Below are positions 57,331 to 59,048 of a stretch of DNA of 64,000 nt, piece by piece (the first letter of the stretch is position 1; each line of letters begins with the position of its first letter). The stretch covers positions 1 to 64,000 of the forward strand of contig NZ_JAOASQ010000063.1 in assembly GCF_030158565.1 (NCBI RefSeq). Reading direction: 5' to 3'. Source of the DNA: Limnohabitans sp. (lineage in GTDB: Bacteria; Pseudomonadota; Gammaproteobacteria; Burkholderiales; Burkholderiaceae_C). Under the pieces are notes generated by a model. That model was not told the DNA's origin, ran no database searches, and saw only the letters and a list, made by a program, of their open reading frames with translations. The position numbers were made by a program, and so were the translations under genes.

Positions 57331-57681
57331 GTGTTTGAACACTACAGCAAACCGCTGATTCCCAAGGCGGACTACCACCGCCGATTGGTTGGCGCCGCAG
57401 GCTTGGCTTTGCTGCTGATTGGCGTTTCATTGGGGGTGGGCATGGTCGGTTATCACGCGATTGAGGGCATGCCCTGGATCGATGCTTACCTGAGCGCCGC
57501 CATGATCTTGTCTGGCATGGGTCCGGTGGGCGAACCACTGAGCACTGCGGGCAAATTGTTTGCAGGCACCTACGCGCTGTACAGTGGTTTTGTGGCGCTG
57601 ATTTGTGTGGGCGTGTTGGGCGCACCCGTGTTGCACCGGTTTTTGCACCGCTTTCACATCGAAGAGGACGTTGACGCATGA
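57331..57681 (+). CDS. Small two-helix pore-loop membrane protein (degenerate K+ channel-like)
   Basis: 116 residues: a hydrophobic helix (about 20-42), an amphipathic segment [12 protein letters not shown] (49-60), then [19 protein letters not shown], and a second helix (about 76-101), ending in a basic and acidic tail ([15 protein letters not shown]). The order helix - pore helix - P-L-S/T-xxGKLF - helix is that of two-helix potassium channels, but the TVGYG filter is replaced by SGMGPV. It could be a channel of different selectivity or none. It overlaps the tadA fusion by four bases. Confidence 0.7.
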
Positions 57682-59048
57682 ACGGCTGGCGCGATGAGCA
57701 GGGCATGCGCCTGGCCCTGGAGCAGGCCCACGAAGCCGCTGCAGCGGACGAGGTGCCTGTGGGCGCGGTGGTTGTCAAAGACGGCCAGGTAATTGCCACC
57801 GGTCGTAACGCCCCCATTGGCAGCCACGACCCCACCGCGCACGCCGAGGTGATGGCGCTGCGCGAAGCGGCCCGCGTATTGGGCAACTACCGGCTGGATG
57901 GCTGCACGCTGTATGTAACGCTGGAGCCTTGCGCCATGTGCAGCGGGGCCATGCTGCATGCCCGGGTTGACCGCGTGGTGTTTGGCGCGGCCGACCCGCG
58001 CACCGGGGTGGCGGGTTCCGTGCTCAACCTTTTTGAGCACACGCAGTTGAACCACCAGACCCAAGTCACGGGCGGTGTGCTGGCCGATGAATGCGGTCAG
58101 TTGCTCAAAGACTTTTTCAAGCCCCGGCGCATCAACGCCGACCCGGTGCGCGAAGACGCCTTGCGCACGCCAGATGCAGCCTTTGCCGGTTTGCCCGATT
58201 ACCCCTGGCTGCCCCGCTACGTGAACGACCTGCCCAGCATCGCCGGGCTGCGCATGCACTATCTGGACGAAGGCGATGTGAATGCCCCTTTGACCTGGCT
58301 GTGCTTGCATGGCAACCCGGCCTGGAGCTACCTGTACCGCAAGATGATTCCGATTTGGCTGGCGGCGGGGCACCGCGTGGTGGCGCCCGACCTGATCGGC
58401 TTTGGCAAGAGCGATAAGCCCAAGAAGGACAGTTTTCACCAGTTTGAAACCCATCGCCAGTCCTTGCTCGATTTGATCGAGCGGCTTGATCTGCCGCGCG
58501 TGGTGCTGGTGGTACAGGACTGGGGTGGCATTTTGGGGCTGACTTTGCCGATGGCTGCGCCCGAGCGTTACAAGGGCCTGCTGGTCATGAACACGACATT
58601 GGCCACCGGCGAGCAGCCGCTGAGCGACGGCTTTTTGGCTTGGCGCGATTGGTGCCAAAGCCAGCCGCTGTTTGACGTGGGCAAGTTGTTTGCGCGGGGC
58701 AACCGCCACATGACGTCTGCCGAGACGGCCGCCTACAACGCGCCATTTCCGGACAAGGGCTACCGCGCCGCACTGCGCGCCTTTCCACCCATGGTGCCGG
58801 AGTTCGCCGATTCGCCCGGCGCGGCCATCTCGCGGCAAGCGCGTGACTTTTGGCGCAACGACTGGCAAGGCCAAAGCTTCATGGCCATTGGCCAACAAGA
58901 CCCGGTGCTGGGCGAGCCGGTGATGCGCCATTTGCAAAGCCAGATCCATGGCTGCCCAGAGCCCATGCTGCTGCCCGATGCGGGGCATTTTGTACAGGAG
59001 CAGGGCAGGGCGATTGCCGAAGCGGCTGTGCGACACTTCAGGCCTTGA
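57678..59048 (+). CDS. tadA: TadA tRNA-adenosine deaminase fused to DhlA-like haloalkane dehalogenase
   Basis: A single 456-residue frame with no internal stop. Residues 1-150 are a full TadA, which deaminates A34 to inosine in tRNA-Arg(ACG): zinc and proton-shuttle residues in HAEVMAL (55-61) and PCAMC (84-88). Residues about 160-456 are an alpha/beta-hydrolase matching DhlA from Xanthobacter as I recall it: HGNP (211-214), nucleophile Asp281 in VVQDWGG, halide Trp282 and Trp322, Asp408 and His437 in DAGHFVQE. The linker is about 10 residues. Start codon overlaps the upstream membrane gene. Confidence 0.9.

Follow-up and report, generated by a model that had tools for sequence, protein, structure and literature searches.

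The locus that we analyzed raises the question of what a haloalkane dehalogenase is doing at the end of a tRNA adenosine-34 deaminase (TadA), and whether it still works there as an enzyme. The window, a 64,000-nucleotide stretch of a Limnohabitans sp. contig, contains a single plus-strand ORF at 57678-59048 with 456 codons and a stop. Its 456-residue product holds two complete domains by Pfam and NCBIfam, TadA followed by a haloalkane dehalogenase (HLD). A first-pass annotation had described such a fusion, with exactly this position and length and with a short linker, and both NCBIfam models score above their cut-offs. The TadA domain (residues 1-152, 57678..58133, plus strand) matches the equivalog model PRK10860 over residues 5-155 with 206 bits against a cut-off of 150, and its best PDB match is 1z3a, the E. 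coli TadA. The deaminase motifs HAE (residues 55-57, 57840-57848) and PCAMC (residues 84-88, 57927-57941) are both present on the same strand. The HLD-I type alpha/beta hydrolase domain (residues 160-456, 58155..59045, plus strand) matches PRK00870 (haloalkane dehalogenase) over residues 160-455 with 328 bits against a cut-off of 265, and it scores below the cut-offs of the equivalog models PRK03592 (123 versus 241) and PRK03204 (88 versus 466). Against known structures it scores 355 bits with DppA (2xt0) and 327 bits with DhlA (1b6g).

We obtained an AF2 model of the whole protein with a mean pLDDT of 87.8 and a pTM of 0.68, in which the hydrolase domain overlays DppA (2xt0) at 1.3 Å rmsd with a TMt of 0.97. 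The junction (residues 153-162, 58134..58163, plus strand) lies in a low-confidence stretch of the model, with pLDDT below 50 at residues 151-161, suggesting that the linker is short, as first proposed, and probably flexible; with this linker and this pTM, the placement of the two domains relative to each other is only tentative. The first-pass annotation had also suggested looking for a separate tadA elsewhere in the genome, and none was found: the sole TadA-grade match in this Limnohabitans genome (assembly 92% complete) is the fused gene.

The fusion is widespread. Following another suggestion of the first-pass annotation, that the co-occurrence of both domains be searched for, we recovered one ORF spanning both domains in 70 of the 90 congeneric genomes; of the remaining 20, 14 fall short of 90% completeness, and several have fragments of the fusion at contig ends. 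At least 159 of the 299 sampled genomes of the family have the fusion (at least 136 among the matches listed, plus 23 of 30 genomes that were searched again). No fusion was seen in the remaining 140, seven of which were among those searched again and yielded a plain TadA in six cases and none in one. In an order-wide sample of 349 genomes (10 of the listed genomes belong to the family of the window, and 11 genomes gave no match), the fusion appeared outside the family, among the matches listed by score, in four genomes, all from family f3, of which five were sampled. Other Burkholderiales families have a plain TadA, so TadA in general can do without the extra domain. The named carriers among the best 80 of 536 matches are Comamonadaceae (Limnohabitans, Rhodoferax, Hydrogenophaga, Curvibacter, Ramlibacter, Acidovorax, Polaromonas, Ottowia and others), and carriers include isolates as well as metagenome assemblies of several named genera. 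The closest to the window of the 60 aligned from these 80 is from Limnohabitans sp. Bal53 (L236, 86%). The carriers across the genus, the family and the named records rule out a peculiarity of a single genome or an assembly error. The earlier remark that the fusion may be an accident does not hold in the sense of a one-genome oddity, as the fusion occurs across the family and supplies the only TadA found in this genome.

A few individual records deserve mention. Three contigs of one Ottowia beijingensis assembly (L241, L244 and L245) each have a fused gene, and none of the 52 matching records in a plasmid collection covers 80% of the query. We considered whether some near-complete relatives might live without tadA and rejected this for two of them, G021 and G030: guaA and ldcA were likewise not found in their assemblies, so an assembly gap is likely. 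In two further genomes, G071 and G131, guaA is present and ldcA was not found. G131 (L274), which is called 100% complete, gave no TadA-grade match, but this absence may be only apparent, as its sequence past guaA is unlike that of the window and its contig stops after another 4 kb.

The fused gene of the window is preceded on the same strand by a gene for a 116-aa hydrophobic protein (57331-57681) that has no Pfam or NCBIfam match and whose stop overlaps the tadA start; it is also found upstream of the inactivated fusion L135 discussed below. Directly downstream is an LD-carboxypeptidase gene (Peptidase_S66; 59117-60028, plus strand) that scores 283 against the PRK11253 cut-off of 378, and further on a large penicillin-amidase family protein is encoded at 60089-62569 on the plus strand (PF01804, 654 bits). 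On the minus strand, downstream of guaA, two small neighbouring ORFs of 113 and 92 aa (55925-56556) look by eye like a putative HigBA-type toxin-antitoxin pair.

We asked how the two active sites have fared in 150 fused ORFs. These are the ORFs that were fetched, about 20 of the 70 full-length ones of the genus and most but not all of those of the family; L002, which is RibD-like, and six plain TadAs are excluded. The deaminase motifs HAE and PCxMC are kept in all 150. The dehalogenase triad is kept in 59, here called intact, and at least one triad residue is lost in the other 91, here called inactivated. The nucleophile position has lost its Asp in 84 of the latter and all three residues are gone in 78. 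These counts include L158, whose domain is interrupted by a stop in a metagenome contig, and become 90, 83 and 77 without it; L158 was left out of the trees. The in-frame stop within the remnant domain of L158 (genome G157) is either a real truncation or an error.

The protein of the window belongs to the intact forms. Enzymes of the HLD-I subfamily are defined by an Asp-His-Asp and Trp-Trp pentad, according to a passage of PMC6920932. Alignment to DhlA (1b6g) shows this pentad to be complete (all positions plus strand): the nucleophile D281 and the halide-stabilizing W282 (58518..58523) lie opposite D124-W125 of DhlA, and the second halide-stabilizing residue W322 (58641..58643), which corresponds to W175, falls within GFLAW opposite GFTAW. 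A different placement of W175, by which W322 would not be the halide Trp, was rejected by counting residues along this alignment. The catalytic acid D408 (58899..58901) and the catalytic base H437 (58986..58988) lie opposite the catalytic Asp and His of DhlA, which we take, with the first-pass annotation, to be residues 260 and 289. Its claim that every catalytic residue of the dehalogenase is kept, including Trp322, is thus borne out. The full pentad is present in 59/59 intact proteins, W322 being also a Trp in 18/18 stand-alone HLDs. In the HGN motif of the oxyanion/halide region (residues 211-213, 58308..58316), H211 is found in 59/59 intact proteins, 91/91 inactivated ones and 22/22 stand-alone and f3 hydrolases, and at position 213 an Asn (HGNP) stands in place of the Glu of DhlA (HGEP).

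The inactivated domains are often shortened. Measured from the junction motif, the domain spans 300-317 residues in the 59 intact proteins and 108-371 residues (median 218) in the 89 of 91 inactivated proteins that could be measured, with 59 of these 89 at 240 residues or fewer. The inactivated forms are spread over 46 of the 63 genera with the fusion; 17 genera have intact forms only, 38 have inactivated forms only and 8 have both. Despite their reduction these domains are still recognizable: of 10 inactivated proteins or domains scanned with Pfam, all 10 matched Abhydrolase_1, seven of them above the cut-off, and the AF2 model of one inactivated protein (L251), which is of moderate quality (mean pLDDT 75, pTM 0.49), resembles half of an HLD (2xt0, TMt 0.49, rmsd 4.0).

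The active site looks to have been lost repeatedly, with losses that appear scattered over the tree and one of them within the genus of the window. A quick tree of 149 rows, made from TadA and the retained columns, has 7 state changes, 3 of which are forced by well-supported branches. A more careful tree of 53 hand-picked rows has 9 changes, and a single inactivated clade occurs in 0% of its bootstrap trees; placing all inactivated forms in one clade was, however, not rejected by the AU test on these 53 rows (p 0.0675). In a weakly resolved TadA-only tree (48 hand-picked rows), the intact and inactivated states are scattered like shuffled labels. The loss closest to the window is that in L135, which by its TadA lies inside the genus (88% identity, 97; 99/85 in the 53-row tree) and in the 149-row quick tree lies outside it. 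The fused gene of L135 sits between the same upstream and downstream genes as that of the window, but its hydrolase is without an active site and shows a shortening similar to that of the inactivated domains in other lineages.

We further analyzed what the inactivated domains retain. Nine residues (P156, R163, H211, D238, G241, G243, S245, D246 and P248) are invariant in 91/91 inactivated proteins, a set that was picked for being invariant, and their synonymous codons vary. Conservation of the inactivated domain at the DNA level, for example as a promoter for the downstream gene, was therefore rejected, since synonymous sites vary. Other retained residues are typical of the fusion, as judged by comparing the 150 fused proteins with 22 others, namely 18 stand-alone and four f3-fused hydrolases, which align loosely at the junction. 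In the conserved stretch P156 to R158 (58143-58151, plus strand), P156 is present in 59/59 intact, 91/91 inactivated and 2/22 other proteins, and R158 in 58/59, 86/91 and 1/22, respectively. The basic pair K249-K250 of the SDKP-KK motif (58422..58427, plus strand) is likewise fusion-typical: residue 249 is Lys in 59/59 intact and 88/91 inactivated proteins (Arg in the other three) and in 0/22 of the stand-alone or f3-fused hydrolases, and residue 250 is Lys in 58/59 intact proteins, Lys, Arg or Gln in 67, 20 and 4 of the 91 inactivated ones, and Lys or Arg in 1/22 and 2/22 of the others. Outside this segment, G361 of the PFPDxG motif in the former cap region (58758..58760, plus strand) is found in 59/59 intact, 88/91 inactivated and 0/22 other proteins. 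The mean net charge of segment 244-262 is +2.6 in intact and +2.4 in inactivated proteins, compared to +0.4 in stand-alone and +0.75 in f3 hydrolases.

The domain is under purifying selection. In 18 pairs of inactivated sequences dN/dS was 0.09-0.41 at residues 156-278 and 0.16-0.74 over the rest of the domain, and in five intact pairs it was 0.05-0.26 across the hydrolase; both sets of pairs were hand-picked, some pairs share a sequence and some have a high synonymous divergence. Together with the fusion-typical and invariant residues, these values suggest that the domain serves a further function linked to the fusion; the copy in the window seems to be constrained like a working enzyme in addition. 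The hydrolase of the window is most likely still active, because its full pentad is under strong purifying selection in its lineage.

We propose, with a probability of roughly 0.6, that the captured HLD acquired a further function, non-enzymatic and in cis to TadA, most likely that of holding or presenting tRNA, and that the protein of the window is bifunctional. According to this proposal, TadA would have captured an HLD-I domain at its C-terminus, the domain would have gained its non-enzymatic role after the fusion, and the hydrolase would then have been reduced to that role repeatedly in many lineages. According to a passage of PMC8216470, the C-terminal helix of TadA touches the anticodon stem-loop. 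The appended domain would present or hold the tRNA next to this helix; we infer tRNA handling because the domain directly follows the helix and the three fusion-typical basic residues R158, K249 and K250 are at hand, and stabilizing or orienting TadA would be a close alternative role. The protein of the window would probably be an enzyme and a TadA accessory domain in one. The first-pass annotation had doubted any link between tRNA editing and dehalogenation, and rightly so. Its choice between a passenger and a hydrolase acting on a tRNA-related or detoxification substrate, however, misses non-catalytic retention: the loss of the active site in 91/150 proteins, with other parts of the domain kept under selection, points to a non-catalytic role rather than to hydrolysis of a tRNA-related substrate.

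A fuller version of this proposal is possible but more tentative. Here an HLD fold captured by an essential tRNA editor would have become a tRNA-presenting module whose enzyme activity was then lost in many parallel events. What is left would be a shortened and catalytically dead alpha/beta-hydrolase relic, conserved for RNA handling and a convergent bacterial counterpart of the N-terminal domain of ADAT3, with the protein of the window showing the still-bifunctional state. We assume that TadA is essential in the organism of the window. In E. coli it is, according to a passage of PMC3711424.

Part of what is retained may serve folding, since H211, D238, D246 and W216 are conserved in ordinary stand-alone HLDs as well. 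The domain might accordingly be a scaffold for the folding, stability or dimer orientation of TadA that makes no contact with RNA, TadA having become dependent on it after the fusion by constructive neutral evolution. This explanation, which shares the non-enzymatic half of ours and differs in mechanism, we consider somewhat unlikely. The inactivated forms do retain parts of the alpha/beta core and the PD..G.G.SD motif, which is also conserved in stand-alone HLDs, and the L251 model still resembles half of an HLD. A scaffold alone, however, leaves K249 and R158 unexplained, both being basic and missing from stand-alone relatives (0/22 and 1/22).

The hydrolase could instead be a passenger, joined by accident and kept for an independent enzymatic job, with the inactivated forms merely decaying. 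The whole pentad in 59/59 intact forms with a low dN/dS, and a dN/dS that is higher in the inactivated forms, would agree with this. How neighbouring genes can fuse is illustrated by f3, where the four fused ORFs (L259-L262, from genomes G435, G518, G386 and G555) keep, in 4/4 cases, an in-frame ATG preceded by an AGGAG-like stretch where the hydrolase begins. Nevertheless, plain decay should erode motifs or truncate the protein to TadA alone, whereas the same non-catalytic motifs persist in all 91 inactivated forms, which come from 46 genera, and dN/dS is well below 1 in the retained half. We therefore regard the passenger explanation as improbable.

The f3 fusion has the same order of domains, TadA then HLD, with QDW, Asp and His intact, and it differs from the fusion of the window in lacking K249-K250 and G361, in its internal start and in the position of its hydrolase. 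In a hydrolase tree of 60 hand-picked rows the fused hydrolases of the intact f1 proteins cluster together (91/93) beside four stand-alone HLDs, and the f3 hydrolases fall outside the branch that unites this cluster with those four (100/100, with a bootstrap not fully settled). The TadA-HLD fusion thus seems to have arisen at least twice, because the f3 hydrolases are on another branch and keep an internal start; the f3 fusion would be a younger, separate joining of neighbouring genes, for which an internal AGGAG and ATG are as expected. The alternative is a later splitting of an older fusion. A free hydrolase may also be translated from the f3 ORFs. We looked for such a start in f1 and found some start codon with an upstream purine-rich stretch near the junction in 25 of 148 ORFs only, so a conserved internal start, clear in f3 (4/4), was rejected for the f1 fusions.

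Two apparently independent fusions might hint at a link between the genes, with the hydrolase acting on a substrate connected to tRNA or TadA so that both activities serve one pathway. We know of no pathway shared by TadA and a dehalogenase, and the persistence of the fusion after loss of the active site in 91/150 proteins makes such a coupling very improbable. Lastly, the first-pass annotation had allowed for two genes joined by a sequencing error near residues 150-160, but there is no stop there, the full-length ORF recurs in 70/90 genomes of the genus and among named records of Comamonadaceae, which include both isolates and metagenome assemblies from several genera, and nothing was found in favour of an artefact, which we consider refuted.

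Compared to known systems, the protein of the window shares the whole deaminase domain with E. coli TadA (1z3a), including HAE and PCxxC and a score above the PRK10860 cut-off, and differs from bacterial TadA by about 300 extra residues, the C-terminal HLD-I domain after the TadA helix; six plain TadAs of the family that we checked are 155-207 aa long. With the HLD-I enzymes DppA (2xt0), DpaA (7avr) and DhlA (1b6g) it shares the fold and the pentad, and it is 51% identical to haloalkane dehalogenases that Xanthobacter flavus and Ancylobacter novellus carry on plasmids. It differs from these enzymes in being fused to TadA, in its HGNP in place of HGEP, in K249-K250 and G361, and in that 91/150 of its fused relatives are inactivated. 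The likeness to ADAT2/ADAT3 is one of principle only, both being wobble deaminases with an extra domain attached through flexible stretches. The N-terminal domain of ADAT3 binds and presents tRNA, according to a passage of PMC8216470. It has an unrelated ferredoxin-like fold, is located at the other end of the protein and works in a heterodimer.

No description of a TadA-HLD fusion was found in open-licence PMC text, as judged by titles and the starts of abstracts. The finding is not a new enzyme class; it is a TadA architecture for which we found no description, with a repeated apparent conversion of an enzyme into an accessory domain. Labelling these genes as TadA or as dehalogenase alone can mislead, for instance when genomes are mined for dehalogenases. 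TadA, the parent of the adenine base editors, is normally a small enzyme. A TadA that nature has enlarged by a further domain across a whole family would, if true, show that evolution has arrived at a larger wobble deaminase in a second way. How an enzyme fold turns into a non-enzymatic part can be followed here as in a natural experiment, with one and the same protein ranging from intact to inactivated and shortened forms, once inside the genus of the window.
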